Shown: positions 13,552-57,022 of the stretch, in pieces
How positions within the stretch are numbered: the first letter of the stretch is position 1
Layout of the letters: every line of letters starts with the position of its first letter
From: Candidatus Stygibacter australis
Lineage (GTDB): Bacteria; Cloacimonadota; Cloacimonadia; Cloacimonadales; TCS61
Assembly: GCA_030765845.1 (NCBI GenBank)
Contig: JAVCDJ010000037.1
Coordinates: 1-59,469, forward strand
Direction: 5' to 3'
DNA length: 59,469 nucleotides
Program-made: the position numbers and the translations under genes
Notes under the pieces: model-generated
Databases searched by the model: none
The model's input: only the letters and a program-made list of their open reading frames with translations
Told to the model about the DNA's origin: nothing

Positions 13552-14115
13552 ATGAACTTACAACGTTTGTATTTATTGCTTTTACTGCTGATATTTGTTC
13601 TTCCAGTTGTAGCAGCAGTTGGCTGGGATGTATCAGACCAGGTGCTGCTTTCTTCCATGGAAGAGGATTTAGGGCATATTGGAGAATGTATTTCCAGCCT
13701 GGTGTATCTTTCATCTATGAGTGAGGAGGAGAACCATGTTGGTATTGGAATATCAGAAATTATCTATTTATCGTCAATGGAGGAAGAGCTTAATATTGGT
13801 GAAGGAATTTCTGAGATGATTCTTTTAAGTTCTCTGCATTATGGCGATGTAGATAATAATACCGAGGTGGAAAGCTTTGATACTTCTTTGATTTTGCAAT
13901 ATGCAGTTGATCTAGATCCAGCACCAGAAGCACCTCTACCCTGGGAAAATTGGAGATTAACTGTAGCAGATGTGAGTGACGCTGGTTTTGTTGGAGCATA
14001 CGATGCGGCGTTGATATTGCGCTATGTTCCCGGTTTAATTGATGTTTTTCCGGTTGAAGGCGAACCGGTAATTGATAGAGTCAGGGGACTATTAAAATGG
14101 AAGATTTCAAGATAG
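13552..14115 (+). CDS. Exported protein with three LSSM repeats and a dockerin-like domain
   Basis: 187 aa. Signal peptide about 1-22 (LYLLLLLLIFVLPVVAA). Residues 23-97 hold imperfect ~23-residue repeats, each ending in V/I-x-L-S-S-M-E/S-E-E. Residues 98-170 form a dockerin-like pair. The first loop, DVDNNTEVESFD, followed by TSLILQYAV, has the Asp/Asn pattern of a calcium loop. The second, DVSDAGFVGAYD followed by AALILRYV, is weaker. The same pair occurs in the 2130-aa protein at 34537. The C-terminus overlaps neuB by 19 nt. A cohesin partner could be the modules in the giant protein at 41049. No sorting domain is seen. Confidence 0.7.
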   Translation: MNLQRLYLLLLLLIFVLPVVAAVGWDVSDQVLLSSMEEDLGHIGECISSLVYLSSMSEEENHVGIGISEIIYLSSMEEELNIGEGISEMILLSSLHYGDVDNNTEVESFDTSLILQYAVDLDPAPEAPLPWENWRLTVADVSDAGFVGAYDAALILRYVPGLIDVFPVEGEPVIDRVRGLLKWKISR

Positions 14116-18769: not shown

Positions 18770-18770
18770 C

Positions 18771-19589: not shown

Positions 19590-19697
19590 CAGAATGTTAA
19601 ATCACCTGTTTTGTTGATAAAGCTATGATTTAAAACACCCAAAAGGTTTCAAGGAAAAAATGAATCGCTCAGGTTAGGTATTATTTAAAGAGGTTTA

Positions 19698-19922
19698 ATG
19701 GTATTTTTAATATCAAACATAAAAATACCCAAAGCAAGGCATTTGGGTCAGCTCTGGTTTAGAGGAGATTTTATTTATTCAGAAAACTCAGCTAACATAT
19801 TAGAGGGGCACATCCTGAAACCCGAGAAATTCAATATTAAAGATTTTTTATATAGCCATCTAAATAATGAGCAATGCGTGGGAATTGATACATTATTAAA
19901 AAGGAATTTTAATTATGAGTAA
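19698..19922 (+). CDS. Small protein of unknown function (74 aa)
   Basis: I do not recognise it. AAGAGG lies a short way before ATG 19698, and its stop overlaps the next gene by 8 nt, which argues for real translation. It has no signal peptide or membrane helix and no cysteine cluster. Residues 42-48 (KFNIKDFL) resemble residues 4-11 of the next protein (QFNIEDFL), so it could be a truncated relative of something that once joined that gene. It may also be a C-terminal fragment of a lost sugar enzyme; the 108 nt upstream hold no frame that continues it. Confidence 0.4.
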   Translation: MVFLISNIKIPKARHLGQLWFRGDFIYSENSANILEGHILKPEKFNIKDFLYSHLNNEQCVGIDTLLKRNFNYE

Positions 19923-21360: not shown

Positions 21361-21381
21361 TACGGAAAACATCAAATAACT

Positions 21382-22872: not shown

Positions 22873-23530
22873 ATTGCTTGCTGCAGTGTAATTACACAAT
22901 AGTTAAGTTACAGCTTATTAAGCAGATAAGTTATTTTAGGGATTAAAGTACTTAATAATATTTTTGGAGCGCTTATATTTAAATGAAAAATTATCATAAA
23001 TAGAGATGCTGGATACTGAGGGCTTAAGCCAAACAAATATAGCCAAATACCTATTTTTATCTAAAACAACAGTGATGAAAATGTATTTGAATTTAAGTCT
23101 CGTAGAAGTTAAATGGATACTGCTTTCCAAATCCAGACTAATTAAATTCGATATAGCTATAAATTTTATAAAATATGGATTTTCACGGATAGAATATATA
23201 CCAGAGGTTATGAATTTGAAGTCCAGTAAATTGTATCCTCTTATTACTTTCAAAAATCATATTTAGCAATTTTTTCTTCATTGCAGGTAGAAATGCATGA
23301 AGTTTCTTTTCATATTTTTCCGACCGGTTATTTTCTAATATTAATTCACCCAATACGAATTGCTATAAATCCAGATTGCTATAGTAAATATACTACGAAG
23401 GGAAAAGTTTTGCTAATTTAAGAATAATTTTATTGCCAGTTATTTGGTATACTGATAAATTCGTAATGTTATTATATCCTTTTAGTTAGGGGTTTTTAAG
23501 AATATTGAAAAATAACATGGGAGTAAACAG
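22873..23530. other. Gene-poor spacer (658 bp) with possible HTH remnant
   Basis: A+T-rich. GTGTAATTACAC (22886-22897) is a perfect 12-bp palindrome just after the flippase gene. The plus frame 23006-23266 contains GLSQTNIAKYLFLSKTTVMKM, which looks like a helix-turn-helix of a transposase or regulator, but it has no SD and no further recognisable domain. I treat it as a possible remnant. No terminator is evident. Confidence 0.35.
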
Positions 23531-34536: not shown

Positions 34537-37500
34537 ATGAAAAAGTTGATTATTGCAGTATTACTGGTTTGCGTAGGATTACTAATAGCAGACCCGATTC
34601 CAATTGGAGAAGGCATGGAAACAGGTACCTATCTTCCAATGGAACCTTATTATGGTTACACCTATTCACAGGTAATTTATACCGCAGATGAAATAGGTGG
34701 AGCAGTTGACATCGAGAATGTAGCCTGGCATTTTAATGGAAACAGTGCCTGGGTAGAAGACTGTACAATTTATATGGGACACACAACTCTTGATGAGTTT
34801 GGTGTATATCCGAGCTGGATGCCACTAACAGAACTGACAGAAGTCTGGACTGGTGGATTTTCAGTAATGGATTTTGATCACTGGGTAACAATAGAGCTTC
34901 AGAACATTTTTGCCTATAATGGAACAGATAATCTGGTAATAGCATTAGATGCTAATACCCCGGGTTATCACAGTTCATTGGACGAGTTTTATGGATCTAC
35001 AACAACCCTGAACCGTTCAATTTATTTCTGCAGTGATTCAAATAATCCTGATCCTGCTAATCCTCCTACCGGGACTTACAGAGATGATCCTAATCCTATA
35101 GAAGAAGCTCATCCTACAGACAAGGAAGTAATGAGAGCAGCAGGTGTTCAGCCATACATAGCTAATATCATTCTTAATAATGATGCAGTTATGCCGAGTG
35201 GATTTGTATCTGGAGAAGTTGTTGATTTCGATACCAATGCTCCCATCGAGGGTGCTACTGTATTAGTCGGTAATTTTTCAGGGACAACAGATGCTACGGG
35301 ATTTTATGAAGTCGAAGTAATGGTTGAGGGTACCTATGATGCAATAGCATCAGCATACGGATATTTCAATAGTACCGTTTCAGGCGTAGAAGTAATATTC
35401 GATCAGACAACTACAGTAGATTTTGCTCTGGAAGTATTTGAGACAGCGGGAACAAGCTGTGCAGATCCTTATGTGATAGATGCCTTACCTTTTGTTGAGA
35501 CAGGAATGACCACAGAAGGATTTGGAAATGATTATACCAGCACCATGGCTTGTGCAAGCTATTACATGGGTGGTGATGATTTTGTATTTGCTTATACACC
35601 AGAAGAAAATATGTCGGTAGATATTGCATTAACAAATACAGATACCTATACAGGACTTTTTGTAATCCAGGGATTTGTAGATGATCCAACAGCAGTATGC
35701 GTAGCTCAGGCTGGGGCTTCTGCAGGTAACCCCATGTTAGAAGACGTGATCTTACCAATGGGTGAGACTTATTATATAGTAGTATCAACCTGGCCAGCAC
35801 CATATTTTACTCCCTTTGATATTGCAATAACAGCTAATGAACCACCAACATTTGGAAGTCTGGATGGAACAGTGACAGCACTTGATGGCGGAGCAGCAAT
35901 TGAAGGTGCTGTAGTAACTGCTGGTGGATTTAGCGAAATAACAGATATAAATGGATATTACATGTTCGCAGGTCTGGAAAGCGGTTTATATGATGTATCA
36001 GTAATGGCTGATGGATATTATGGAGCAACTGAGATGGGTGTAGAGATTCTGGAAAATCAGACTACTACAGTTGACTTTGCTCTGGAAGTATTTACAGATA
36101 CTGGTGACACGATTTTGGATCCCATCGTAATTGATGCTTTCCCATATTTCATGTCAGGAGATATTTCTCTTTATACAGATTACAGTACAGGAGCTGGTTT
36201 AGAAGGCTCACGTGCAGGACAGGATATTTTCTACGAGTTCACAGTTACAGAACCATCTATTATGGATCTTCACAGTTGCGGATCAGAATTTGATACATAT
36301 ATGCACTTATATGACAGTGCATATACACGTATTGCCTATGATGATGATGGCTGCAGCAGTTGGGGTTCAGGTAGCACTATGGCTTCATGGATCAATGATG
36401 GTAATGGCTTCTTAGTTCAACCAGGAACCTATTATATCTGTAATGAAGGATATTCATTTGTTGCCGGATATAGATATTTTGAATCTCATTTTGATATATT
36501 GCCACCTCCACCAATGGGAAGCATTGATGGAACAGTGACAGACCTTGTAACCGGCGAACCAATAGTCGGAGCAAATGTGACAATAGACGGTACAACCCTG
36601 ATGACAGATGATATGGGATATTATATGTTAACTCTGGAGTTAGGATTTTATGATATAGCAGTTTCCTTAACTGGTTATAATCCTGATGGAGCTACAGGAG
36701 TGGAAGTGCTTGAAGATCAGACAACTACAGTCGATTTTGCACTTGATCCAATTACAGGTGTAGTATTTGAGCTTACAAGCGATTCCTGGGGATACGAATG
36801 CACATGGAACGTGTGGGATGTAGCGAATAGTGAACTTGTTTGGGCAGCTGATTGGACATTCCCAGGCAATAATATGACAATGACCGTATCAGAAGATCTT
36901 CCTGATGGCAGTTATATAGTATATGTACATGACAGTTATGGAGATGGTGGTACATCAGGTATCGTCAGTAAAGAAGGCGTGGTACTTGTAGAATGGTTAG
37001 GTGGAGATTATGGATATGAAGGTGAATTCCCATTCATCTTAGGACCAATATTATTTGGTGGACTGGAAGGAATAGTAACCGACAACTTTACAGGCAATCC
37101 AATTGACGGAGCCACTATTATGTGTGGTGGATATTCTGGAATGTCAGATGCTACAGGATATTACAATATACCAGATGTTCTGGTAGGTACATATATAGTT
37201 ACATGTGATGTAGCTGGCTATACAGGACAGGAAGCACTGGATGTAGTAATTGCAGAAGATGTAGTAGCAACTCAGGATTTTGCTCTTGATATCATTATGG
37301 CAGAGCCAACTAACCTGGTAGCAACAGTTGACGGATATGATGTAGGACTGGCATGGACAGAACCATATGTTCCACCAACAGATATGCTGCATTGGGATGA
37401 TATGACTAATTTTGATGCTATTGGATTAACCGGTGGCGGAACATTCAGCGTAGCAGTCAGATTCACACCAACAGAACTGGCACCATTTAATGGTTTAGTA

Positions 37501-40500
37501 ATGGATAACGTTACAGTATATATCAACGATCTGCCAACAGCAATGACTTTATATGTATGGACTGGGGAAAATGCAGCTAATGTACTGGTTCAGCAGACAG
37601 TAACTCCAGTAGGACTTGACTGGAATAACTTTGTATTGAATACACCAGTAACAATTGACGCAAGTCAGGAATTATGGATAGGATACGAAACAACCTCAGT
37701 ATCTGGAGCAGAATTTACCTCTGGTTGTGATGGTGGTCCTGCTGTAGCTGGTTTTGGAGATATGATCAGTTTAGACGGTTTAAACTGGGATTCAATGAGT
37801 ATATCCTATGGTCTGGATTACAACTGGAATATCTGGGGTGGAATCGCTGGAGAACCTGGAAGAAACCAGGTATTAGCACGTCCACAGCCATGGCATCCAG
37901 AAGCAATTCAGGTAGATAACAGAGTAGAATTCGCAACAGCCGGATATGGCGAGGTAGCTCGTCCATTTACCGGATCATATAATGTATATAGAGATGACGT
38001 TGTGATAGCAACATTGTCAGAGACAACCTATGATGATCTGGGACTGGCTGCAGGCATATATGAATATTATGTAACTGCAGTATATGATGAAGGTGAATCA
38101 CCAGAAACTAATCATGTAATAGTAGAGGTTGGAATGGTTGACGTATCAGTTGATCCAACTGTAATAAGTGAGACCCTTGATTATGGCTTAACCTCAGATC
38201 ATAATATTTTATTGTCTAATGATGGAGATGCAAACTTCTATTGGGCAGGATCAGTTAATAATGTAGTTCGCTTCAGCGTTCCAGAGATGAAACCACGTCC
38301 AGCAGGAAAGACAAATAATGGTGCTGATATGAATTCTGATCTTATGATGTTTGACGTTCCAGCTTCCCGTGACATGTGGGATCTTCTGGATACATTCACA
38401 ACTGACGTAGTTAGTCAGGCTGGTATTGAATTTGACGGAACCTATTACTACACAGCAGTGTGGAATCTTGATGTTATCAATAAGTTTGACATTGATGGCA
38501 ACTTCATCGAAAGTTTCGCAATTCCAGGCGTTTCAGGCTTAAGAGATCTGGCCTATGATGGAGAATATTTCTATGGTGGAGCAGCCGGAACCGCTTTATG
38601 GCAGATGGATTTTGAAACCCAGACATTGGTATCAACAATCACATCACCTATGGCAGTTCGTGCAATTGCTTATGATGATGAAAGTGATGGATTCTGGGTA
38701 AATAACTGGAGTACAGATATCACCTTAGTAGGCCGTGATGGAAGTATTTTGGATAGTTTCCCATGCTCATTAACATTAAATAGTCTTTATGGCTTAGCTT
38801 ATGATAATTATACAGATGGCGGACCATACGTATATGGATTCAGCCAGGCAGGAAGTGGCTGCGTGATCTCACAGTACAATATCGCAACAGGTGCTGAAAC
38901 CGGTGTTACGCATGATGTACTTTTAGATGTAGGTGCAGCTGGTGATTTAGCTGGTGGAATGTTCACCTCAGCAGATCTCATTCCTGGAACCTTTGTAATT
39001 GGTACACTTAATCAGACTACTTATACAGTGGCAATTTATGAATTAAGTCCGGCATCAACCTGGTTAGATATTGTACCGACTAGTGGAACATTAGCACCAG
39101 GCGAAAGTATCAATATCACAGCCACCTTTAATGCTATTGAACTTCCTGGACTTACTTACTTTGCTGACATAGTATTCACTGATGGTGCAGCAATGGCAGC
39201 AGTAGCTGCTGATCTTACAATAACAGGTAGTATTCCAACAGCAGAGATCACAGTTGATCCTCTGGAATTTGACGTAATGGTACCAGTTGACGGGTTGGCA
39301 GAATATACTTTGAATATTGGTAATCTGGGAGATCTGGATCTGGAATATGATGCAGAGATCATGTATTATGAGGGTCGGTCAGTAGTAGAAGCTTATCCTC
39401 AAAGTGCAGATTACTGGACAGGCTCAACTGATGGAACCAGCTTTACATCAACCAGCATGATCAATGGAGTCAACTTAGAAGATGGCTGGGCTATGTTTGA
39501 TGTTTCTGGAATTCCAGATGGAGCAGTTATAAATAGTGTTGATTGCAATGTATATGTAAATGACGCTTATTATTGCTGGTGGTCAATCACACCATGTACC
39601 CTTGATCCACTGACAACTGATGCAGCAACCTTGAGTGCACATATAATTGCCGGAGAAGGTACAGGAGTTGCATATTCATACAATAATGAAGCCTACACTT
39701 TTGCAACCGGCTGGCACACATATACTCTTGGTACAACAGTAATTGCTGATCTGGAAGCTGCTTTAGCTCAGGACTGGTTTGCCTGTGGTATGACATCACG
39801 TGATAATTCAATTTCATATTGGATAAACATTGATGGCTGGAATGAAGCAAATCCACCATCTCTGACAATAGACTATACTGTTCCAATCAACCCATGGGTA
39901 ACTTTTGGTGGTGACATGATGGTTGATGGAATAGTAGCAGTAGGTGCTGGTGCAGACATGCACACCCTGAACTTTGATGCCGCCGGACTTATGGATGGCG
40001 ACGTAATGATGGGTGAGATCATGATCACCAGTAATGATCTTTATAATACAGAGATCATAGTTCCAGTTACCATGACAGTAGGTGCAGCTTACATGTATGG
40101 AGATGTAACCGGTGACGAAGTAGTAGATGCCTTTGATGCAGCTAACGTACTTCAGTTCACGGTTGGCATGGATCCAGTGGGCGCTCCCTTACCATGGACC
40201 TGGGAATTAATTGCAGGTGACGTTGATGGCAATGGATCTCCTGAAGCCTATGATGCCGCTCTTATCCTTCAGTACGCTGTTGGTATGATCGATATCTTCC
40301 CAATAGAAGCCAGAATAGATTCACCAGTAGCTGATGTAAGCATGACAGTAGAAAATGGCGAACTTGTATTTAGCACAACAGGCGATCTTTATGGATTCAG
40401 CGTGATGACAGAAACTGAATTAATCAGTTTCCAGGCACCAGTGACCGAATATCTTCATGCAGTTAATGGCAATGCAATCGCATTGGCAAGTGCTGAAGCG

Positions 40501-40929
40501 ATCAGTGGTGAATTCCTGCGTATTCCATATGAGAAAATTGCTGAAAGTGGTGAATTTACAATGACCATGACAGTAAATGGTATCAGTAGTGAGAATACAT
40601 ATAATGTAGAGGATTTGGAAGTAGCTCCAGTAGTAAATGCAGTATTGAAAAACTATCCTAATCCGTATAATCCAAACTTAAGCAGAGGAAATGGTATAAC
40701 AATCTCGCTGTCAGTGGCAAATAATAACACACCAGTGACGGTTAGTATTTATAATGTAAAGGGTCAGTTAGTGAACAGCCTTGTAAATGAGACGGTAGCA
40801 AGTGGAATTCACGACTTCGTATGGAGTGGTAAAGACAAGAGCAATCGTCTAGTATCTTCAGGAATATATTTCTACAAAGTGAAGATAGGCGAACTAAATG
40901 AAACCCACAAGATGATAATGCTTAAATAA
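34537..40929 (+). CDS. Giant secreted protein with CarboxypepD-reg, dockerin-like and T9SS sorting domains
   Basis: 2130 aa. Signal peptide 1-18. Four carboxypeptidase-regulatory-like domains (about 221-300, 442-518, 661-738, 843-920) share G-x-V-T, P-I-x-G-A-x-V and D-x-x-G-x-Y-x. Between them lie PPC-like segments. A FN3/galactose-binding-like region follows to about 1200, then a propeller-like stretch (1280-1510), a DNRLRE-like part (1620-1780), and a dockerin-like pair (1852-1925) with loops DVTGDEVVDAFD and DVDGNGSPEAYD. The end (NYPNPYNPN, YNVKGQLVNSL, SGIYFYKVK, MIMLK) is a type IX sorting domain. No enzyme domain is visible. Likely surface scaffold or adhesin whose dockerin may bind cohesin modules of the next two proteins. 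Confidence 0.85.
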   Translation: MKKLIIAVLLVCVGLLIADPIPIGEGMETGTYLPMEPYYGYTYSQVIYTADEIGGAVDIENVAWHFNGNSAWVEDCTIYMGHTTLDEFGVYPSWMPLTELTEVWTGGFSVMDFDHWVTIELQNIFAYNGTDNLVIALDANTPGYHSSLDEFYGSTTTLNRSIYFCSDSNNPDPANPPTGTYRDDPNPIEEAHPTDKEVMRAAGVQPYIANIILNNDAVMPSGFVSGEVVDFDTNAPIEGATVLVGNFSGTTDATGFYEVEVMVEGTYDAIASAYGYFNSTVSGVEVIFDQTTTVDFALEVFETAGTSCADPYVIDALPFVETGMTTEGFGNDYTSTMACASYYMGGDDFVFAYTPEENMSVDIALTNTDTYTGLFVIQGFVDDPTAVCVAQAGASAGNPMLEDVILPMGETYYIVVSTWPAPYFTPFDIAITANEPPTFGSLDGTVTALDGGAAIEGAVVTAGGFSEITDINGYYMFAGLESGLYDVSVMADGYYGATEMGVEILENQTTTVDFALEVFTDTGDTILDPIVIDAFPYFMSGDISLYTDYSTGAGLEGSRAGQDIFYEFTVTEPSIMDLHSCGSEFDTYMHLYDSAYTRIAYDDDGCSSWGSGSTMASWINDGNGFLVQPGTYYICNEGYSFVAGYRYFESHFDILPPPPMGSIDGTVTDLVTGEPIVGANVTIDGTTLMTDDMGYYMLTLELGFYDIAVSLTGYNPDGATGVEVLEDQTTTVDFALDPITGVVFELTSDSWGYECTWNVWDVANSELVWAADWTFPGNNMTMTVSEDLPDGSYIVYVHDSYGDGGTSGIVSKEGVVLVEWLGGDYGYEGEFPFILGPILFGGLEGIVTDNFTGNPIDGATIMCGGYSGMSDATGYYNIPDVLVGTYIVTCDVAGYTGQEALDVVIAEDVVATQDFALDIIMAEPTNLVATVDGYDVGLAWTEPYVPPTDMLHWDDMTNFDAIGLTGGGTFSVAVRFTPTELAPFNGLVMDNVTVYINDLPTAMTLYVWTGENAANVLVQQTVTPVGLDWNNFVLNTPVTIDASQELWIGYETTSVSGAEFTSGCDGGPAVAGFGDMISLDGLNWDSMSISYGLDYNWNIWGGIAGEPGRNQVLARPQPWHPEAIQVDNRVEFATAGYGEVARPFTGSYNVYRDDVVIATLSETTYDDLGLAAGIYEYYVTAVYDEGESPETNHVIVEVGMVDVSVDPTVISETLDYGLTSDHNILLSNDGDANFYWAGSVNNVVRFSVPEMKPRPAGKTNNGADMNSDLMMFDVPASRDMWDLLDTFTTDVVSQAGIEFDGTYYYTAVWNLDVINKFDIDGNFIESFAIPGVSGLRDLAYDGEYFYGGAAGTALWQMDFETQTLVSTITSPMAVRAIAYDDESDGFWVNNWSTDITLVGRDGSILDSFPCSLTLNSLYGLAYDNYTDGGPYVYGFSQAGSGCVISQYNIATGAETGVTHDVLLDVGAAGDLAGGMFTSADLIPGTFVIGTLNQTTYTVAIYELSPASTWLDIVPTSGTLAPGESINITATFNAIELPGLTYFADIVFTDGAAMAAVAADLTITGSIPTAEITVDPLEFDVMVPVDGLAEYTLNIGNLGDLDLEYDAEIMYYEGRSVVEAYPQSADYWTGSTDGTSFTSTSMINGVNLEDGWAMFDVSGIPDGAVINSVDCNVYVNDAYYCWWSITPCTLDPLTTDAATLSAHIIAGEGTGVAYSYNNEAYTFATGWHTYTLGTTVIADLEAALAQDWFACGMTSRDNSISYWINIDGWNEANPPSLTIDYTVPINPWVTFGGDMMVDGIVAVGAGADMHTLNFDAAGLMDGDVMMGEIMITSNDLYNTEIIVPVTMTVGAAYMYGDVTGDEVVDAFDAANVLQFTVGMDPVGAPLPWTWELIAGDVDGNGSPEAYDAALILQYAVGMIDIFPIEARIDSPVADVSMTVENGELVFSTTGDLYGFSVMTETELISFQAPVTEYLHAVNGNAIALASAEAISGEFLRIPYEKIAESGEFTMTMTVNGISSENTYNVEDLEVAPVVNAVLKNYPNPYNPNLSRGNGITISLSVANNNTPVTVSIYNVKGQLVNSLVNETVASGIHDFVWSGKDKSNRLVSSGIYFYKVKIGELNETHKMIMLK

Positions 40930-40942
40930 AGCATAATAAATG

Positions 40943-40980
40943 CCGGGGCGGTTAACCGCCCCGGTGTTTTTTCTTTTTTT
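40943..40980 (+). terminator. Rho-independent terminator
   Basis: A perfect GC-rich palindrome (CCGGGGCGG-TTAA-CCGCCCCGG, 40943-40964) is followed by TGTTTTTTCTTTTTTT. It separates the two giant genes, so they are transcribed independently or with reduced readthrough. A weaker CAGCA/TGCTG hairpin follows near 40984. Confidence 0.92.
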
Positions 40981-41048
40981 AGCAGCATGAGGGTGCTGTT
41001 AAAAAAAGGGAAAGCCTTAAAAAAATAATAATTTAACAGGAGGGATAC

Positions 41049-44000
41049 ATGAAGCGAGTTATAGTTTTTAGTTTTCTTTTATTAGCAATAATGTTTATTT
41101 ATGGTCAATTCGAGAATACCATAATAACAGTATCAGATGCAATGGTAGAAGAGGGCGACACATTATGGATTGAAGTAAGCACGACAGAAGTATTAGATGA
41201 ATGGGATGTGATAGCATTCCAGTTTGATCTGGCATTTGACGAAAGTTTGATTCAGTATGAGGGCGTGGCACTGGGAGAGATGCCATTACCTGCAAACCTG
41301 ATAGCCAATGAATATGAGCCAGGGATATTACGTACAGCATATGCAAACTATTTGAATATCTCGGGAACAGGAACTCTTGTAATAATAGAATTTATTGCCA
41401 TCGGAGAAGGTGTAACAAGCTTAGACATTTATGATTTCAAGTATAACTCAACATTCCTTTTGGATGAAAATCAAATTGACGGTAACGTAACAGTATTGGT
41501 ACCTAATCCATTTTCAGATGTAATCGTCAGTGTTGATTCACCAGTAGCAGGCTTGGTAGAGAACTTTGATCTGGCAATTCTAACCAGTGAACTAACCACA
41601 GAGATGGGTGGTATATCCTTCCAGTTTGAGCTGATATATGACCCCGAAATGATGACATTTACAGGGAATTATGCATTAGGCGACGTGCCAAATCCGGGAA
41701 ATTTGATCGCAAATGAAACGGGACCTGGCGTAGTAGTAGTAGCTTATGCGAATGTGATGCCGATTACCGGTGTTGGTTCTCTATGTACTTTGGAATTTGA
41801 ACCAGCAGGTGAAGAGGGAGAGTCAATTGTTAGTCTGGATTATTTCAGATATAATTCAACTAATTTATTAAATCTGGAATCCGGTACAGTTTATTTTATG
41901 GGTGGACCACAGGAAATAGAAGTAAATAAAGATATGGTACCTGGCTGGAACTGGTTTTCTTTGAATGTAGCCGGTGAAGACATGACAGCCAACGGGGTTT
42001 TGGCTTCAATTGGTGAGGATGCTTCCAATATTAAAAGCCAGACCCAGAGTGCAATTTATTATGCAGGAATGGGCTGGTATGGCAGCCTCACATCAATTAA
42101 TAATTTAACATTTTATAAAATTGAAGTAGAAAACAGCACTACATTAACATATACGGGAATTCCAGTAGATCTGGCAGCGACCACATATAGTTTAACAAGT
42201 GGCTGGAACTGGATATCCTATGCACCACAACAGGCAGAGGATATTAATTATGCACTGGAGACAGTAGTGAATGGTTCCAACATCAAAAGTCAAACCCAGA
42301 GTGCGATATATTATACGGGTATGGGCTGGTATGGTAGTTTGACAACGCTTAATCCTTTGGGTGGTTATATGCTTCAGATGAATGCACCAGAACTCTTAAA
42401 TTATCCTGAACCTCCAGCAATGTCAGCAGAAAATTTAGATAACAATTCTGTGGAAACATTAAGTCAAAACCGTCAATTACGGGACGTTCCAGCGTGGAGT
42501 GTAAATCCTGCTGCTTATGAATATAATGGGTTTATTTGGGGTCAAGTCCTGGTAGACGGGGTTTCAGCAGATGATGTAAATGACCTGGTAGCAGTATTTG
42601 TAGGTGATGAATGCCGTGGATTAGCTCAGCAGAGTGATAATAGCGTTCAGAATTTCGATCCAGTGCCTTTTGGTTATATTGCTTTTATGCCACAGGTATA
42701 TAGTAATGTAACGGCAGGAGAGACCTTAACATTTAAATATTATGATGCCAGTGCAGATATGGAATATGACGTAATAGGAGATTTAGCCTTTACTGCTGAC
42801 ATGGTAGTAGGCGGGGGCTTTGATCCTTATATATTTGAGGTAAGTGCAACACCACCTCCAGAACCTCATTTTGAGACAGTCTGGGCAGGGGATCCATTAT
42901 ACCCGCATAATATAAGTGTATTAACAGCAACAATAAATGGAACAGCATTAGAAGCAGGAGATGAAGTAGCAGTCTTTGATGTGGATGGGAATGATGATGA
43001 AATATGCGTGGGAGTTACCACGGTTGCAGGAGCAGCACCTTATGTAGTGTCAGCTTCCTGGGATAGTTATATGACACCAACCATAGTTGACGGATATGTA
43101 ATAGGACATCCAGTTATCTACAGAATTTGGGATGCAAGTGCTGAAGTCGAGTTGACAGAGATAATTTCAACCCCAATTCCTACTTGGACAGGATTGTATG
43201 TATTCCAGGGAAATACGCAGGTATTGCTGGAAGCAAGTGGAGGAAATTTACCACCCGTAGCAGATGCTGGAGAAGACCAGATGGTGATTGAAGGTGATCT
43301 TGTTCAGTTAGATGGAAGTGCATCTTATGATCCTGATGGAGAGGAAAGTAGAGAAATACCAGACTGGAGCGTAAATCCAGCTGCTTATGAATATAATGGA
43401 TTTATCTGGGGTCAAGTCCTGGTAGACGGGGTTTCAGCAGATGATGTAAATGATCTGGTAGCAGTATTTGTAGGTGATGAATGCCGTGGATTAGCTCAGC
43501 AGAGTGATAATAGCGTTCAGAATTTTGATCCAGTGCCTTTTGGCTATATAGCCTTTATGCCACAGGTATATAGTAATGTAACGGCAGGAGAGACCTTAAC
43601 ATTTAAATATTATGATGCCAGTGCAGATATGGAATATGACGTAATAGGAGATTTAGCTTTTACTGCTGACATGGTAGTAGGTGGAGGTTTTGCTCCTTAT
43701 ATATTTGAGGTATCAACTGTGGTAACTTCAGATCTTGATTTTCTCTGGACAGCACCTGATGGAGTGATATTGAGTGATCCCACTGCGGTTCAACCAACAT
43801 TCACCGCGCCTGATGTGACAGAAACTACTCTTTATACTATATCTTTAATTGTTAGTGATGGAGAAGCCTGGAGTGATGCCGATGAAGTAGTTATTACTGT
43901 AGAGAATGGTAATATTGCTCCAATAGCTGATGCTGGTGAAGATCAGATGGTGATTGAAGGAGACCTGGTTCAATTGGATGGAACAGCGTCTTACGATCCT

Positions 44001-47000
44001 GATGCTCCTATCGAAAGCAGAGATGTACCTGATTGGAGTATTAATCCACCAGATTTTGAATATAGTGGAACAATCTGGGGAGTAGTAAACGTAGATGGTA
44101 CTTTATCAGTAGATGTAAATGATATGATTGGTGTATTTTTTGGTGAAGAATGCCGAGGAATAGCACAACAAAGTGACGGTTCCGTACAGGATTACACAGC
44201 TTTGCCATTTGGTCATGTAGCCTTTATGCCAATGGTGTACAGCAATGTAACAGCAGGTGAGACATTAACATTTAAATATTACGATGCCAGCGCAGATATG
44301 ATCTATGATGTGGAAGGAACAGTGGATTTTGTGGCAAATATGACAATTGGTAATGGATTTGATCCCTTTATATTTACCGTGACCACCATATTTATCCCTG
44401 ATCTGGATTTTGTTTGGACGGCACCTGATGGTATTGAATTGAATGATGTAACATCAGCAATACCAACATTTACAGCTCCCGAAATTGACGAAGAAACTCC
44501 TTATACCTTCTCTTTGATAGTTAGTGATGGAGAAGCCTGGAGTGAAGCTGATGAAGTTGTGATCACAGTTCAGAATGGCAACGAAGCACCAGTGATAGAA
44601 TTACCACCAAACTTTACGTTTGATGAAGATGGCAGCCTGGGAGTAGATTTTGCTGCTGAAGGTTATATCTGGGATCCGGATTTGAATGATCTCACATTGA
44701 CCGTGGAAGGTAATGTTAATATTAATGTAGAAATAACGGGTGGAGCTGTAATATTCTCAGCATCTGAGAATTGGTACGGTTCAGAGATTATGACATTCAC
44801 AGTTGACGACAATGAGGCAAGACTTATAGCTAGTGATGATGTGGAAGTGATAGTGAATCCAGTGAACGATCCTCCAGTATTTACCTATGCAGAGCCAGAG
44901 ATAGGCTTTGATGAAGATGAAGATATAATGGTAGATTTTTCCAGCTATATCAGTGATGTAGATGAAGATGAATTAGTAATGTATCTGGATGGATTGGATG
45001 ATATAACAGGTGATATTGAAGGATTTGTAATAACCTTTAGTGCTGCTGCTAACTGGAATGGAACCGATGCAATAATCATCGGAGTTTCAGATCAGCAAGG
45101 CAGAGAAGTTGCAGAAGTAAATGTAGATATCGTGGTATTACCAGTAAATGATGCTCCGGTAATTGACTTACCTGAGATGCAGGAAATTGATGAAGATGGC
45201 AGTCTGGTGCTTGATATTACTCCTTTCGTGAGTGATATTGACGGAGACGTGCTGGAAATTTCCGATCTCTCAGTATATGATAATGGCGAATGGGAATTAG
45301 CATATTATGGACTTATCGCATATATAACTCCTGCAGCAGATTATTATGTAACTTGTGATGTGGAGATCACAATAACTGATAACGCAGGCCGTGAGACAGC
45401 AAGCGATATGTTCCAATTAGTAGTGAACCCTGTAAATGATGCACCATATCTGATCATGGAACTTCCAGATCTGGAATTTGATGAAGATTTTGAAGAGACA
45501 TGGCTTGATCTGAGTGAATATTTTGGTGATGTAGATGAAGATGTATTAACCTATACGGCAGATTATAATGCTGCAGAAATTATGATTTCATTTACAGACA
45601 ACCAGATGTATCTTTATAGTGTAGAGAACTGGTCAGGAACAGCAACAGTTACAGTAACGGCTTCAGATAATGTTGGTAGAGATATAATCGCAGATACATT
45701 TGAGATTCTGGTCAATGCTGTGAATGATGAACCTTATTTGATCATGGAATTAGTAGATTTGGAATATTACGAAGATTTCGAAGAAACATCATTTGATTTG
45801 AATGAATATTTTGCAGATGATGATAATGTATTAACATTTTCGGCAGAATATAATGCAGAAGAGATCATGGTTACTATAGCAGATAACATGATGTATCTGG
45901 GCAGTGTAGAAAACTGGTATGGATTGGCAGAGGTGACAATTACAGCTTCCGATAATATGGATAGGGCAATAATCACAGACACATTTGAAGTACTGGTGAT
46001 TAGCGTAAATGATGCACCTTACTTATATAATATGATAGATGATATGGAAATGGAAGAGGATTTTGAATCTGAGACATTGATTCTTTCTGATTATTTTACT
46101 GACCCTGATGGAGATTTGAATAACTACTGGGCAGTATGGGAAGAAGGAACTGTCAATATTGAAATCATTGAGGTTGAATTATCTATAACCTCAGTTTTAG
46201 ACTGGAATGGTCAAATTGATGTAACCGTGTATGTGGAAGACAATATGGGTGATCAGGCAGATTTCACATTCCAAATTACAGTACTTCCTGTGAATGATGC
46301 ACCAGAAATAGATCTTCCGGAAATGTTAAGTTTTGCTGAAGATGGTATGCTGGAAGAAGATTTTAGTGTTTATATTGAAGATGTGGAAGAAGATGCACTG
46401 TTATTGACATTTGACGGTAATGAAAACGTAATTGTGGAAATAACCGATTTAATGGTGACTTTTAGTGCAATAGAAAACTGGAATGGCAGTGAAGAAATTA
46501 ATTTTGCTGTTTATGATTTACCGGAAGGCAGACTGATGGCAGAAGATATGGTCATTGTCGAGGTAACTTCAGTTAATGATGATCCAATAGCAATGCCAGG
46601 CGGTCCTTATGGAGCCGAGGCGGATGCAGAGGGATTTGCAGCGATCATGCTTGATGGCAGTGGATCATATGATATTGATGGTGAGATAGTATCCTGGGTC
46701 TGGAACTGGGAAGGTGGTTCAGGTGAAGGAGAAACATTTGCAGCCATATTTGCGATAGGTGAAACTCCAGTGGAATTAACAGTAACAGATAACGAGGGTG
46801 GAATCGGAACTGAAACCACGATAGTGAATGTTACTGAACTCGGTAATACACCTCCTATTGCTGAACCAGATATGTATAGTGTATTTGAAGATGAAGTTCT
46901 GATGGATAATGTGCTTGCAAATGACCAGGATCCTGATCAATATCCAGAGCCTTTAACTGCTGAATTAGTGGCAGATGTAAGCAATGGTGTATTGGAATTA

Positions 47001-50000
47001 CTGGGAGATGGCAGCTTCACATATACCCCTGCAGCGAACTGGAATGGTGAAGACATGTTCAGTTATCGGGCTTATGATGGAATGGCATATAGTTCAGAGA
47101 CAGAAGTAGCAATTACAGTAATGCCGGTTAATGATGCACCTGAGATGGTGATGCAGCCGGAAGATATTAATCTGGCAGAAGATTTTGAGCCATACGAATT
47201 CAGTTTAGTCGGATATTTCAATGATATTGATAATGAAGTACTGGATTATGTAGTTAATAATAATGTAGAAGAAATTGCGATTGCTGATATGGGTGATGGC
47301 GTATATGAAATTACTCCAATTGCAAACTGGAATGGTGAAAGCTATGTGGGAGTAACCGTAACAGATGGTGAATATGATGTAGAAAGCAGTTTCGTGGTAT
47401 ATGTGGAAGCTGTGAATGATCCTCCTTATGTTTACAATGAGATTCCTGATATGGAACTTGATGAGGATTTTGAGTCCGTAGTATTAACATTATCAGATTA
47501 TTTCATGGATGTAGATAATGATATACTTGGCTACTGGCTTGAATATGATCTGGAAGCCGTAGTAATTGAAATTGCCAATGATGAATTGACTTTATCATCA
47601 ATAATGGACTGGAATGGTGAACTTGATATTACAGTCATCGCTTATGATGAATGGTACCCGCAAGAAGATGTATTCCATCTGGTTGTGAATCCTGTGAATG
47701 ATGCACCAACGATTGATTTGCCTGAGATGTTAAGTTTTGATGAAGATGGGATGCTGGAAGCAGATTTCATGGACTACATTGGTGATATTGACGGAGACGT
47801 ATTAGCATTAACCGTAGAAGGCGGGACGGAAGTGGCAGCGTCCATTGAGGGTTATATAGTAACCTTCACAGCCAGCGAGAACTGGTTTGGCGAGGAAGTT
47901 CTTACCTTTACAATCGATGATGCAATGGGAAGACTTACAGCCAGTGATGATGTGATCATTTCTGTGGGATCGGTTAACGATAACCCCGTAGCTATGCCCG
48001 GCGGACCCTACAATGGACAGGCTAATACCGAGGGTTATGCAGAGATAGAGCTTGATGGCAGTGGATCTTATGATATTGATGGTGAGATAATGAGCTGGGA
48101 ATGGAGCTGGGAAGGTGGCTATGGAACAGGAGAAACCTTACTGGCGGAATTTCCGGCCGGAGAAACCATTGTTACTTTAACTGTGATGGATAATGAACAG
48201 GGCGTTGATGAAGAGACAACAACTGTCAATGTAAGTGAATATGTTAACATACCTCCGATTGCCGAGCCTGATATGTTCACCTTAGATGAAGATACATACG
48301 AATTTACAGGTAATGTACTGGTTAATGATTATGATCCTGATGAATATCCTGAACCATATTTAACTATGGAAGTAGTAACATCTCCTTCGCATGGATTGAT
48401 GGGTTGGGATGAATACGGGAGTTTTCTTTATTGGAGCCTAGAGCCTGACTTCAATGGCGAAGACATGTTCACTTATCGGGCTTATGATGGAGCGGCATAT
48501 AGTCAAGTGGTAGAAGTGACATTTACAATAATGCCTGTAAATGATCCACCTGAGATGGTGATGCAGCCCGAAGATATCAATCTGGCAGAAGATTTTGAGC
48601 CCTACGAATTCAGTTTAGTCGGATATTTCAATGATGTTGATAATGACGTACTGGAATATGCAGTTGATTATAATATTGAAGAGATTGAGATTGCTGATCT
48701 GGGTAATGGCGTCTTTGAAATTACTCCAATCGCAGACTGGAATGGTGAAAGCCTTGTAGGAGTAATCGTAACAGACGGTGAATATGAAGTAGAAAGCAGT
48801 TTCATGGTATATGTGGAAGCTGTAAATGATGCCCCAGAGCTGGTAATGCAGCCTGACGATATATATCTGGCAGAAGATTTTGAGCCATACGAATTTAGTT
48901 TAGCAGGATATTTCAGTGATATTGATAACGAAGTGCTGGAATATGCAGTAGATTTTAATGCCGAAGAAATTGAGATTGCTGATCTGGGTAATGGCATTTT
49001 TGAAATCACTTCTTTGGAAAACTGGAATGGTGAAAGCTATGTGGGAGTAACCGTAACAGATGGTGAATATGAAGTAATGAGTAATTTCATGGTATATGTA
49101 TCATCAGTAAATGATGAGCCAGTCGCCGAGGCAAACGGACCATATTATGAACAGGCAGATGAAGAAGGGAATGCTGAAATAACGTTAGATGGCAGCGGTT
49201 CTTACGACATCGATGGTGAAATTGCAGCCTGGGATTGGAGCTGGGAAGGCGGTAGCGTCAGTGGTGAGATGCCTATGGCAGTTTTTGCTACTGGTGTATT
49301 TGAAGTAATGCTGACAGTAACTGATAATGAAGGTGGAATAGGCACAGATATAGCAACTGTCACAGTATCAGGCTATGAAAACATGGTACCTGTTGCTGAA
49401 GCAGATAGTTTTGAAGGTGAAGAAGATACTTCCATCTCTGGCAATGTTCTCTATAATGATGTAGATCCAGATGAATATCCGGAAGCAATGACAGCTGATC
49501 TGATCACAGATGTAAGCTGGGGAGTTCTGGCGCTTTCAGCAAATGGAGACTTTGTATATATGCCTAATGAGAACTGGAATGGAGATGACAGTTTTGAGTA
49601 CAGGGCATTTGATGGAATAGATTATAGTGAACCAGTAATGGTAGCATTAACCGTAATCCCCGTAAATGATATGCCATATCAGACAGGGGATCTGGTAGAT
49701 ATCTACCTGCTGGAAGATTTTGAGCCATATCAACTTGATCTAACAGGATATTTTGGAGATGTGGAAGAAGATGAATTAATTTATGAATATACTTTCACAC
49801 CAGAAGAAATCGTATTAGTATTTGATCAAAGCGCCATGATAGAAATTCAGTCAGTAGAAAACTGGAATGGAGAAAGCTGGGTAGGTGTAGCCGTGAGTGA
49901 TGGTGAATATACGATAGATACCAGCTTCACAGTTTATGTGGAATCAATAAATGATGAGCCAGTAGCCGAGGCTAATGGACCTTATTACAGTCAGGCAGAT

Positions 50001-53000
50001 GAAGAAGGGAATGCTGAAGTAATGTTAGACGGCAGCGGTTCTTACGACATCGATGGTGAAATAGTAGCCTGGGATTGGAGCTGGGAAGGTGGTAGCGTCA
50101 GTGGTGAGATGCCAATGGCAGTTTTTGCAACTGGTGTATTTGAGGTAATGCTGACAGTAACTGATGATGAAGGTGGATTTGGAACTGATCTAGCAACCGT
50201 CACAGTATCAGGCTATGAAAACATGGCCCCTGTAGCTGAAGCAGATAGCTTTGAAGGTGAAGAAGATACTTCCATCTCTGGCAATGTTCTATATAATGAT
50301 ATTGATCCAGACGAATATCCGGAAGCAATGACAGCTGATCTGATCACAGATGTAAGCTGGGGAGCTCTGGCGCTTTCTGCAAATGGAGACTTTACATATA
50401 TGCCAAATGAGAACTGGAATGGAGATGACAGCTTTGAATACAGGGCATTTGATGGAATAGATTATAGTGAACCAGTAATGGTTGCCTTAACCGTGATTTC
50501 AGTAAATGATATACCATATCAGACAGGAGATCTGGTAGATATCTACCTAATGGAAGATTTTGAGCCATATCAACTTGATCTAACAGGATATTTTGGAGAT
50601 GTGGAAGAAGATGAATTAATTTATGAATATACTTTCACACCAGAAGAAATCGTAATAGTATTTGATCAAAGCGCCATGATAGAAATTCAATCAGTAGAGA
50701 ACTGGAATGGAGAAAGCTGGGTAGGTGTAGCCGTGAGTGATGGTGAATATACGATAGATACCAGCTTCATGGTTTATGTAGAATCAGTTAATGATGATCC
50801 AGTTATCGAATTGCCAGACAGCTTTACAATGGACGAAGCAGTACCATTTGAAGTAGATTTTGCAGAATTTACCAGTGATTTTGATGAAGATGTACTGGAA
50901 CTGACTGTAAGTGGCAATGAATATATCAATGTGTTGATAGAAGGATTGAATGTAACCTTTGATTCTCCCAGCTGGTACGGTGAAGAATTATTGACCTTCA
51001 CGATAAATGACAATATGGGAAGAGCTATCGATACTGATGATGTGTTATTGATAGTAAGACCGGCATTATTTGAAGCAGAGATCACAGTAGGTTCAGCAAC
51101 CGTTTTAGAGGATGAACTTTTCACAATAAGCGTAAGCACAACAGAATTGTACGATTACTGGAATGTGATCAGTTTTGAATTTGATATAAATTATGATGCA
51201 GAATCATACGAATATGTAGGATACGAGGCAGGTAATGTGCCTAATCCTAATGCGATGCTGCTGGTGAATAATAGTGCCCCGGGAGTGCTTGCAGTGGCTT
51301 ATGCTGATGCAATAGTAATGTCCGGAATCGGAGACCTTGTAATATTTGAATTTATGGCAGTTAATGCAGGATTAAGTGAGATCAATGCAGTAGATTTCCA
51401 TTATAATTCAACCGAGATATTTAATGTAATACAGGGTATGGTGGAAGTGATTGATGTAAATCATCCACCAGTTGCTGATGCCGGAATGGATCAAAGCCCA
51501 TATGAGCTGGAACCCGTTATGCTGGATGGAACAGCTTCATATGATCCTGACGGACAGGATCTGGATTATGAATGGATAGTTCCAGATGGTATCGAATTAG
51601 ACGATCCCATGAGTGCAACACCAGGCTTTATAGCCCCGGAAGTTATTGCAGACGAGGAATTTGTATTTACCTTAAACGTAAGTGATGGTGAATATACAGA
51701 TAGTGATGAAGTAATAATTACAGTATTGAATATCAATCATCCTCCGGTAGCAGATGCAGGAGAAGATCAGATCGTTGAAGAAGGTAATTTCGTTCAATTA
51801 GATGGATCGGGATCATTTGATCCAGATGGCATTGTATTCAGAGATGTACCAGACTGGATGATAAATCCACCTGATTATGAATATAGTGGATTTATCTGGG
51901 GAATGCTGATGCTTAATGATGTACCAGGTGATGATGTAAATGACATGATTGGAGTATTTGTAGGAGACGAATGCCGTGGAATCGCCCAGCAGAGTGATAA
52001 CAGTGTACAGGATTATACAGAGCCATTTGGTCATATAGCCTTTATGCCACAGGTTTTCAGCAATGTGACAAGTGGTGAGACATTAACATTCAAATTATAT
52101 GATGCCAGTGCAGGAATGATCTATGATATAGATGAAACTCTGGACTTTGTAGCTGATATGACTGTGGGAGATGGTAATGATCCATTTATTTTCACGGTCA
52201 ATGAAGAACAGCCTACAGGTCTGGAATACAGTTGGATAGTGCCAGCAGGTATTTTCCTTGAGAACGCTGACGGTCCTAATCCCACATTCATTGCTCCTGC
52301 AGTAAATGAAGATACAGATTTTGTGATAACTTTAGAGGTATCTGATGGTGAATATACTGACACTGATGAAGTGATGATCACTGTAATGGATGCTGAGATA
52401 CCGGAAATAATTGCAGAAATTACAGTAACTTCAGGAGTTGCTGAGCCAGGTGAATCGGTAAACATTGATGTTCTTACAACTTATATTGACCCATTATGGA
52501 GTGTATTCAGTTATGAATTCTGGTTAGAATATAATGATGCTGAATTGAGTCTTGATGGCTGGTCACTTGATGGCACAATTGTAAATCCTGATGGTGAATT
52601 AGAAGTTATTTTTGAACGTGGTGTAGTAAACATAAAATTCGTAAGCCAGGTAAGTTCCGGTGGAAGGGAATATATCCCAATCGAAGGTGCAGGTAGTTTG
52701 ATCAACCTGGAATTTACATCTCTCACAGGTGGTCAGTCTCCATTAGAAGTTTATGATTTCACTTTTAACTCTGTGGAGGTTGGAGTGATCAACCAGGGTG
52801 TGATCAATAACAATGGTCCAACTGTACTGATTCCAATTCCCTTACAGACAGTATTTGAGGATTTTGGATCATTTACACTTGATTTAGATGGCTATTTCAT
52901 TGATCTTGATGAAGGTGATGAATTAACCTATATAAATATAGAATCAGGAGATGGCATTGAATGGGGCTTACTGGATAATGTATTAACGATAAATTCTGTT

Positions 53001-56000
53001 GATAACTTTAATGGTACTATTCCAATGTCAGTAACAGCCTGGGATGGTTATACTGATTCGTTAACAGTAACTTCAGAATTTGATATTGTAGTTACACCAG
53101 TGAACGATGTTCCGGTGATAGATCTGCCTGAGATGTACAGCTTTGCAGAAGATGGTGAACTGATAGTAGATTTTGCACCATTTATCAGTGACGTGGATGG
53201 AGATGGATTGACATTAAGCGTAACGGGTAATGAAAATATCACTGCTGTAATAACTGGTACAATGGTAACTTTTGGAGCCCTTGAGAATTACTTTGGAAAT
53301 GAGACATTGACCTTTGCAGTTGATGACGGTGTAGATCGCGTGACAGCTACCGATGATATTTTGATTGAAGTAACCTCAGTAAATGATCTTCCAGTTGCAG
53401 ATGCAGGTGTGCCTATAAATGCTATGGCAGGTCCAGAGGGTATTGCTCTGATAACTTTAAATGGAAGCGGTTCTTATGATGTTGATGGTGAAATAATTGA
53501 ACATTACTGGAGCTGGGATGGTGGAGAAGCCTACGGTGAGAATCCACAGATAGAGCTTGCACTTGGCAACTACACTATTTCATTGTTGGTCACTGATAAT
53601 GAGGGTGGTACAGACAGCGACAATGTTCAAGCATCTGTGGCTCCATATAGTGGAACAACTCCAATTGCTTATCCAGATAATTATGAGGTAGATGAAGACA
53701 TGGTATTGATCGTATCTGCTGCTGAAGGAATTCTGGCAAATGATATTGATGATGGATATCCTGAGCCACTTACTGCTTTGATGATTGAAGAACCAACAGT
53801 AGGTACCTTAATCTATAATTCAGACGACTGGGATGGCAGCTTTGAATACAGTGCACCGGCTAACTGGTATGGAATAGTGAGCTTCAGTTATGTAGCTTTT
53901 GATGGAGGAATCTTCTCAGATCCTACTGAGGTGACAATTATCGTGAACAGCGTAAATGATCTACCAGTAGCTGATGCAGGTGGTCCTTACGAAGCAGTAG
54001 CTGAAGTTAATGGCGAGGCAATTGTGACATTATCCGGTTCAGGAACTGATGTTGATGGTGAAATAGTTCTTTATGAATGGTATTATAATGACGAAATGAT
54101 AGGATCCGGATCTGTAATTGATTATGGATTTGGAGTTGGAGACCATGAAGTAACTTTGATAGTAACCGATGATGAAGGCGGTACTGGAGAAGATATAGCA
54201 ACTGTGATCGTAAGTGAATATATCAATATTATACCAGTTGCTGTTGATGATTATTACTCAGTATATGAAGATGATGTACTGGTAGTAGATGCCGGGGCCG
54301 GTGTTTTGATCAATGATTATGATCCAGATGAATATCCCGAAATACTAACTTGTGTATTAGTAGAGCAAAGAGATTTCAACCTGATGGAAGATGGTTCATT
54401 TGAATATACACCTGCACCTGACTTCAATGGTTCAGTGAATTTTGAATATTATGTAACTGACGGTGAAGCGGTTTCTAATCTTGCAACGATCTATATTGAT
54501 GTAATGCCAGTAAATGATCCACCAGTAATAGAGCTTCCAGAAGAATTCACATTCCTGGAAGATGAAAGTCTGGAATTAGATTTCTCAGAATACATTAGCG
54601 ATATTGACAGTGAATTTTTGACATTGTCAGTTTCCGGTAATATAATGGTGCTGGTAGCTATTGAAGAATATATGGTGACAATATCAGCAGAAAGTGACTG
54701 GTATGGCAATGAGACATTGAGTTTCACGATCAGTGATAATGAAGCAAGGTTGTTTGATAGTGATGATGTGATAATTAATGTAACTGCAGTAAATGATGCT
54801 CCAGTTATAAATGAATATTTGCCCGTAGAAACAGATATCACCATTTATGATGATGCAATAATAGATTTCTATGTGGATGCAGTAGATATCGATAGTGATC
54901 TAGAATACAGCTGGACTTTCAATGGTGAATTTATGCCTATTATGGGTAATATCTTTACCCCGGAATTTACTGAAGAGGGTGATTACGTTATTGTAGTAGA
55001 GATCACTGATGGTGAATATCCTGTGATGATCACCTGGTCAGTACACTATCTATTAGCTCCTGACTGGGTAGTAGTTACCTATGATAACTTTACTAATGCC
55101 CATGGTTATGTAACAGTTGATGGTTTATCTGCAGATATAGGTGACATGATAGGTGCCTTTGTGGATGGAGAATGCCGTGGAATGGGTACAGTAAATGGAT
55201 CATCAAGAGTTAATTTCCAAATTTATGGAGATATAGTAGAAGTAGTAAACTTCAAGTTCTGGGATCTGGAAACAGATAGTATTTATGATCTGGAGTACTT
55301 TACACAGACTTATCCAGGTGGAAATATAGGATCAGTACCAAATCCATTACCTCTGGCAGTTACTACTGGAGAGGGACCGGGCTGGGTTCCAGTTATTTAC
55401 ACAAATAGCACCATTGTATATGCACTTGTAACTATCGAAGGAGTAGATGCTGAAGAAGGAGATATTGTTGCAGCTTTTGTAGGAGATGAATGTAGAGCAG
55501 TAACTCAAGTACAATTATTGACCCGTGAAGCAATTGCTTCTCTGGTAGTACAGGGTGAGATTGTCGAGACAGTTCATTTCAGAATCTGGGACAGCAGCGA
55601 AGATATAATCTATAATGTTGCTACAACAATCCAGTCAAATCCAGGAGGTGTAGTAGGATATCCACCAGATGAGATATTGCTTGATGGATCAAACTTATCT
55701 GATGTAACACAGACCTTAGATCTCAATGGGGGCTGGAATCTAGTATCATTATATGTCAGACCAGTAGATATGAGTGTGGAAACAATATTTGCACCGATCA
55801 TGGAAAACCTGATGAAAGTGAAAGACATTTACAGCAGTTATGATCCATCCTTACCTTCAGTATATAATACACTTCAGGAACTTGAAGATGGTTCAGGATA
55901 TTATGTAAAAGTAAGTGCAGTATCTGTACTTGATGTTACAGGATCTATATTGGATCCAACACAAACTCAAATTGATCTTAGTGCTGGCTGGAATCTGGCA

Positions 56001-56938: not shown

Positions 56939-57022
56939 ATGAATTATAAGAAAAAGAAGAGAAAAGAAATGAAAAAATTATTAAAAGAAAAAAAAAAGAT
57001 ATATATGGGAGGCGTTTTATGA
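56939..57022 (+). CDS. Possible Lys-rich leader peptide (27 aa) coupled to the next gene
   Basis: A 27-codon frame, over half Lys/Arg, starts MNYKKKKRKEMKKLLKEKKK. Its TGA overlaps the start of the next giant gene (ATGA), and the SD of that gene is inside it. Its own SD is weak (AAAGAGA). In a purine-rich spacer such a frame can arise by chance, so translation is uncertain. Confidence 0.25.
   Translation: MNYKKKKRKEMKKLLKEKKKIYMGGVL

Follow-up and report, generated by a model that had tools for sequence, protein, structure and literature searches.

Cellulosome-type assemblies are best known from bacteria that lack an outer membrane, and in clostridia their dockerin-bearing enzymes are exported first and assembled outside the cell. 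To our knowledge, the route by which such enzymes would reach the surface of a bacterium that has an outer membrane has not been addressed so far. Here we analyze a contig of 59,469 nucleotides (JAVCDJ010000037.1, assembly GCA_030765845.1; hereafter, the window) from the 3.82 Mb, 95% complete genome of Candidatus Stygibacter australis, which belongs to a genus of uncultured anaerobes in the Cloacimonadota. The window would encode part of a cohesin-dockerin complex on the surface of a bacterium of the Candidatus Stygibacter type, anchored through the type IX secretion system. The core finding is already known, since a cellulosome-like complex has been proposed for Candidatus Stygibacter (Williams et al., 2021; PMC8542988; statements about that report apply to its available sections). 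What is new is the division of the dockerin proteins into two classes and the presence, in four enzyme families, of a dockerin in place of the type IX sorting domain. Our literature search found no account of such a replacement.

The published complex and the one described here share the genus, dockerins on GH18, GH57, S8 and C25 enzymes, and a sorting domain for attachment. Both include a 944-amino acid (aa) dockerin protein and a multi-cohesin scaffoldin, of 3755 aa in the report and 3777 aa here. The report lists a few dockerin proteins and a single scaffoldin, and its available sections do not mention a 5262-aa scaffoldin, two dockerin classes, sorting-domain replacement, genes encoding a cohesin and a sorting domain, or the module that we call X. 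The report describes CBM2/CBM3 in the scaffoldin, whereas Pfam detected neither in the 3777-aa protein; perhaps this discrepancy arises because the InterPro superfamily includes cohesins. The nearest named records are Candidatus Stygibacter frigidus and two metagenome-assembled genomes (MAGs) of the Tobar13.5m series. One genome of the window's genus (G088) is identical over 3565 bp to the Candidatus S. frigidus MAG JAVCCT01. The MAGs Tobar13.5m-G52, Tobar13.5m-G51 and GMC3.metabat2.36 have 100% matches in the genomes G089, G083 and G060, respectively.

Other described systems resemble this one in part. As in the clostridial cellulosome, there are multi-cohesin scaffoldins, dockerins with duplicated loops that often lie at enzyme C termini, and matching folds. 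Unlike that system, the anchors are type IX sorting domains rather than SLH or sortase anchors, no cellulase family or CBM3 was found, and the cargo consists mainly of peptidases and other hydrolases. The planctosome of the Nemodlikiaceae (Andrei et al., 2019; PMC6461901) is likewise a cohesin-dockerin complex, proposed to degrade polypeptides and including an M14 carboxypeptidase; it differs in having few modules and a lamin-tail-domain anchor, and the available sections of that paper do not mention a type IX sorting domain. Anaerobic methanotrophic (ANME) archaea encode many non-cellulosomal dockerin proteins and up to five cohesins per protein (PMC9012536), but with an archaeal S-layer envelope, transporter-type cargo and no outer membrane. 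Finally, homologues of SprA, PorV and Por_Secre_tail are shared with type IX secretion systems; unlike usual type IX cargo, a large set of cargo-type enzymes here has a dockerin instead of a sorting domain.

The window encodes two dockerin proteins (P0004 and P0001) and two cohesin proteins (P0002 and P0003). Their features are as follows, with cohesin bit scores referring to a profile built from cohesins of the same genome:

13552..14115, + strand: P0004, a 187-aa secreted protein with a signal peptide, four ~20-aa repeats (..LLSSMEEE..) and a terminal dockerin
13840..14061, + strand: dockerin of P0004, second loop partly degenerate (Pfam and own-genome profile)
34537..40929, + strand: P0001, a 2130-aa surface protein with carboxypeptidase-regulatory-like domains, dockerin, module X and type IX sorting domain (Pfam, translation)
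40096..40308, + strand: dockerin of P0001 with two Ca-binding loops (profile matches; AlphaFold predicted local distance difference test score [pLDDT] ~98)
40309..40644, + strand: module X, a ~110-aa beta-sandwich between dockerin and sorting domain (AlphaFold model of P0001)
40645..40926, + strand: type IX sorting domain of P0001 (FlgD_ig / Por_Secre_tail), Ig-like fold (Pfam, AlphaFold)
40938..40969, + strand: strong intrinsic-terminator-like hairpin between P0001 and P0002
41049..56837, + strand: P0002, a 5262-aa scaffoldin with four cohesins, cadherin-like/Big_9 and PKD repeats and a type IX sorting domain
41127..41435, + strand: cohesin 1 of P0002 (aa 27-129, 118 bits; also modelled structure)
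41559..41822, + strand: cohesin 2 of P0002 (aa 171-258, 90 bits)
51084..51389, + strand: cohesin 3 of P0002 (aa 3346-3447, 107 bits)
52422..52757, + strand: cohesin 4 of P0002 (aa 3792-3903, 48 bits)
56580..56825, + strand: type IX sorting domain of P0002 (Por_Secre_tail; Pfam)
57019..59469, + strand: P0003, a second cohesin protein of at least 817 aa that is cut by the contig end and may hold more cohesins
57424..57729, + strand: cohesin 1 of P0003, divergent (aa 136-237, 28 bits, E 6e-8)
58696..58980, + strand: cohesin 2 of P0003 (aa 560-654, 48 bits, E 3e-14)

A first-pass annotation had proposed dockerins in the proteins starting at 13552 and 34537, four cohesins in the 5262-aa protein and two in the next. 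Searches with cohesin and dockerin profiles matched all four proteins, and the own-genome profile returned exactly these cohesin numbers; Pfam marked two cohesin stretches in each half of P0002 and, used alone, missed both cohesins of P0003. Both dockerins were recovered as well. Residues 97-159 of P0004 matched Dockerin_1 with 23.9 bits (cut-off 22.9) and the own-genome dockerin profile with 106 bits, and residues 1854-1913 of P0001 matched Dockerin_1 with 21.5 bits in the protein scan and 27.0 bits in the genome search, and the own-genome profile with 89 bits. Each dockerin contains two Ca-loop repeats; in P0004, ligand position 5 of one loop (DVSDAGFVGAYD) is Ala. By Pfam, the dockerin is the sole domain of P0004 and forms its C-terminal end; there is no sorting domain.

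The predicted structures show the two folds that the annotation expected, a cohesin jelly roll and a two-helix dockerin. Cohesin 1 of P0002 was modelled by AlphaFold as a beta-strand jelly roll (pLDDT 95.4), combining the fold and the profile match that define the cohesin family (PF00963). In a fold search with this model, 50 of the 50 PDB matches listed were cohesins or cohesin-like modules, the closest being a non-cellulosomal cohesin of Archaeoglobus (2xdh, TM 0.82), while profile searches against PDB sequences returned chiefly cellulosomal cohesins and dockerins. The model of the dockerin, module X and sorting domain of P0001 (pLDDT 94.7) has dockerin helices at residues 12-22 and 51-61, and two EF-hand-like loops that are each followed by a helix, as in type I dockerins (PF00404). 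Chance matches or an artefact of repeat composition were ruled out by the profiles, the folds and the genome-wide counts, since a Pfam search of the whole genome at E ≤ 1 gave 44 Dockerin_1 and 28 Cohesin matches.

From the stretches located by this search, a procedure that may miss weaker modules, we collected 40 open reading frames with a dockerin and a total of 30 cohesins. Across 39 dockerins, mean column identity was 66% and the loops were mostly intact. The largest number of cohesins, 13, occurs in the 3777-aa scaffoldin (C10), which carries a sorting domain; within this protein (L072:3807-15137, - strand), a run of about five cohesins is present twice in nearly identical form. Cohesins also occur in a C10-family peptidase (C157; three copies, plus a sorting domain), in a 252-aa protein made of a cohesin and a sorting domain (C249), and in adhesins with a single cohesin each. 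Proteins with 13, 4 and 3 cohesins are encoded together with dockerin enzymes in one genome, as in a cellulosome.

The cargo is of another kind. In scans that leave out seven short or partial proteins (unscanned or with no other domain), dockerins were found on peptidases of families C25 (four), S8 (two) and M14, on a PAD-like protein, and on GH18, GH57, endonuclease I, CotH, starch-binding CBM20 and X25, and beta-helix and PKD adhesin proteins. Among the dockerin proteins and scaffoldins that were scanned with Pfam, again apart from those seven, no GH5, GH9, GH48 or CBM3 was detected, so this is not the cargo of a cellulosome. Where the annotation had left the function open between adhesion, glycan degradation and protein degradation, the genome-wide list narrows it to peptidase, glycosidase and other cargo, whose substrates may be protein, a chitin-like glycan and starch. 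The genome also encodes homologues of SprA (SprA_N, 84 bits) and PorV and at least 150 C-terminal sorting domains, which fits the proposal of a non-cellulosomal surface complex exported by a type IX-like system. That proposal is supported and is the best reading, with two qualifications: it had already been made for this genus, and over half of the dockerin proteins have no sorting domain.

The dockerin proteins with intact C termini fall into two classes, with no third (a contig end truncates the one remaining protein). In 23 proteins, including P0004, the dockerin lies in about the last 45 aa and there is no type IX sorting domain in cis. In the other 16, including P0001, the dockerin is followed by a linking module and a sorting domain, which thus lies in cis as it does in P0002. 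Signal-peptide-like N termini are common in both classes (14 of 15 and 10 of 12 proteins whose 5′ end lies inside the contig). A short dockerin paralogue of P0004 is encoded at L064:9672-10358; the two have near-identical signal peptides and LLSSMEEE-type repeats, and it is possible that they act as cohesin plugs or regulators.

We compared four dockerin-terminal enzymes (PAD, GH18, M14 and S8) with their orthologues across the phylum, counting genomes in which the locus was retrieved. Together, the four families include 17 dockerin-terminal and 65 sorting-domain-terminal members, a few of the latter having sorting domains truncated by contig ends. The PAD is dockerin-terminal in five genomes (G000, G088, G089, G083 and G092). 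In 22 other genomes, it has a sorting domain alone, and in G060, it carries dockerin, module X and sorting domain. The corresponding numbers are four (G000, G088, G089 and G083) versus two (G102 and G093) for GH18, five (G000, G088, G089, G083 and G117) versus 23 for M14, and three (G000, G088 and G083) versus 18 for S8. Dockerin-terminal orthologues are confined to genomes that encode 21 or more dockerins, and sorting-domain versions occur in genomes with at most three.

For GH18, M14 and S8, the dockerin and the sorting domain both start within ~20 aa of the point where most alignments end; one C-terminal element has therefore taken the place of the other. In the PAD, homology ends at the dockerin, and the sorting-domain versions have an additional 100-260 aa before the sorting domain; a PAD paralogue with a sorting domain is retained in the same genome (C89). 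As G117 and G092 belong to other genera, the exchange seems to have happened more than once.

Cohesin and dockerin matches are widespread in the phylum (68 and 70 of 125 genomes, respectively), and only G000, G088, G089, G083, G060, G092 and G117 have more than 20 dockerins. The remaining dockerin-bearing genomes mostly have one, in many cases on a ~965-aa M14-like peptidase. G092, which has 21 dockerins, yielded just two cohesin proteins, each with a sorting domain at its end. Some genomes are unbalanced: G116 has 23 cohesin and four dockerin matches, and G117 has 24 dockerin matches and one cohesin match.

Gene order is also conserved. In four genomes (G000, G088, G089 and G083), the gene for the PAD-dockerin protein is immediately followed by those for a cohesin protein and a cohesin protein with a sorting domain; in G000, the gaps are short and no terminator-like site lies between the genes. 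The cohesin protein adjoining the PAD gene has 157 aa and lacks a sorting domain, as does another on C70, and the third gene of the row encodes the sorting domain. The order of P0001 and P0002, a dockerin gene followed by a multi-cohesin gene, recurs in relatives (L099, L100, L102 and L105) and in the Bacteroidetes MAGs L174-L176.

The occurrence of a dockerin at the position of the sorting domain in 23 proteins suggests that a cohesin partner gives them their surface address in trans, and we consider a surface complex of this design probable, leaving the route undecided. In such a complex, cohesins would be carried by giant scaffold proteins (P0002, the 13-cohesin protein and P0003), and the sorting domains of P0002 and the 13-cohesin protein would direct these to the type IX translocon and fix them on the cell surface. 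Some 40 dockerin proteins, including many peptidases, glycosidases and proteins with adhesin-like repeats, would plug into the cohesins by Ca-dependent binding. The dockerin-terminal proteins could either bind their partner in the periplasm and be exported together with it, or leave the cell by other means and be caught at the surface. If correct, this arrangement would allow modular display of many enzymes on the outer-membrane surface through one anchor. The clean swap between dockerin and sorting domain in four enzyme families amounts to a natural experiment and renders the export question testable.

Type IX systems export folded proteins and normally require a folded C-terminal domain in cis (PMC9251779). 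We tentatively entertain co-export, at somewhat less than even chances: the dockerin would be a detachable type IX tag, and a small cohesin-sorting-domain protein would bind the enzyme in the periplasm so that the folded pair exits through SprA. Secretion across the outer membrane would then use an address in trans, and one anchor could serve many interchangeable enzymes. A partial parallel exists in Tat (twin-arginine translocation) hitchhiker export, where a signal-less subunit travels folded with a signal-bearing partner (PMC9251779 and its reference 179; PMC4273604); that process uses another membrane and another machine, and co-export here is a hypothesis. Alternatively, the dockerin-terminal enzymes may cross the outer membrane by a type II-like system, in vesicles or upon lysis and then be bound by surface cohesins, in which case the dockerin would have taken over the anchoring role of the sorting domain and not its role in export. 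The order of events in clostridia is a precedent for such recapture, and what is observed is, strictly, the absence of the sorting domain. We regard it as rather unlikely, as the same enzymes carry a sorting domain in dockerin-poor relatives and type IX export normally needs that domain in cis (PMC9251779); the cohesin-sorting-domain gene beside the PAD gene suits early pairing at least equally.

The 157-aa cohesin protein next to the PAD gene and its counterpart on C70, both without a sorting domain, raise the further prospect that dockerin-terminal enzymes stay in the periplasm, held by such cohesins, and form no surface complex. This is improbable: sorting domains terminate the large scaffoldins, the third gene of the PAD row encodes one, and the cargo includes S8, gingipain-like C25 with a propeptide, and GH18 enzymes, which are typically extracellular hydrolases. 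Most module-bearing genomes of the phylum carry a single dockerin and between one and three cohesins, and the closest known structure is an archaeal non-cellulosomal cohesin, as might be expected if the modules were vestigial, non-pairing spacers in repeat-rich adhesins. We give this explanation very little credence, because 66% identity with mostly intact loops exceeds what is expected of neutral spacers, dockerin and cohesin genes repeatedly lie next to each other in different phyla, and sorting-domain replacement is found in dockerin-rich genomes.

Several observations weigh against a complex with its address in trans. The pairing of cohesins with dockerins is inferred, both here and in the available sections of Williams et al. 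(2021; PMC8542988). In the 16 proteins that keep their own sorting domain, the dockerin must serve another role, such as cross-linking. In G117, with 24 dockerins, the only cohesin protein found is a cohesin-dockerin protein without a sorting domain; this is at odds with a tag in trans, unless the 93% complete genome lacks a gene. Our search for outer-membrane export machinery was confined to the type IX system. Finally, the hairpin at 40938..40969 separates P0001 from P0002. Because of this strong terminator-like site, we rejected a single operon; the two genes are adjacent and probably transcribed separately.

Module X is present in 15 proteins of this genome and in the one cut by a contig end, while a C70 protein has a different linker. 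In the MAGs L170, L174, L175 and L177, a recognizable cohesin occupies its position. HHalign gave module X probabilities of 11-21% against cohesins and 48% against the same-position set of other lineages, with decoys at or below ~2%; that set matched cohesins at 99%. We considered module X as a second cohesin that acts as a built-in cap, which its position, weak profile likeness and beta-sandwich fold favour. The sequence match is weak, however, and a fold search with the whole dockerin-X-sorting model returned only generic multi-domain Ig-type matches, which leaves this idea tentative. Because the direct profile similarity is weak, descent of module X from a cohesin is a suggestion only. Proteins with cohesin, dockerin and module X like those of Stygibacter occur in Bacteroidales/Bacteroidia MAGs (L136, L141, L147, L148 and L158); the modules therefore cross phyla.

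Elsewhere in the window, positions 5439-10523 (- strand) encode a gingipain-like C25 peptidase with a LamG domain, a sorting-domain-like tail and no dockerin, in contrast to the dockerin-bearing C25 peptidases of the same genome. A sugar-acid gene cluster (14097-19589) begins within the P0004 gene, 18 bp from its 3′ end; judging from the translations, it encodes a NeuB-like synthase, a NeuD-like acetyltransferase, a GDP-mannose dehydratase-like protein, an aminotransferase and a CMP-sugar synthetase-like protein. Over positions 18001-24000, which contain glycan export genes, GC content falls to 31%, compared to ~40% further downstream, as in a horizontally acquired surface-polysaccharide island.

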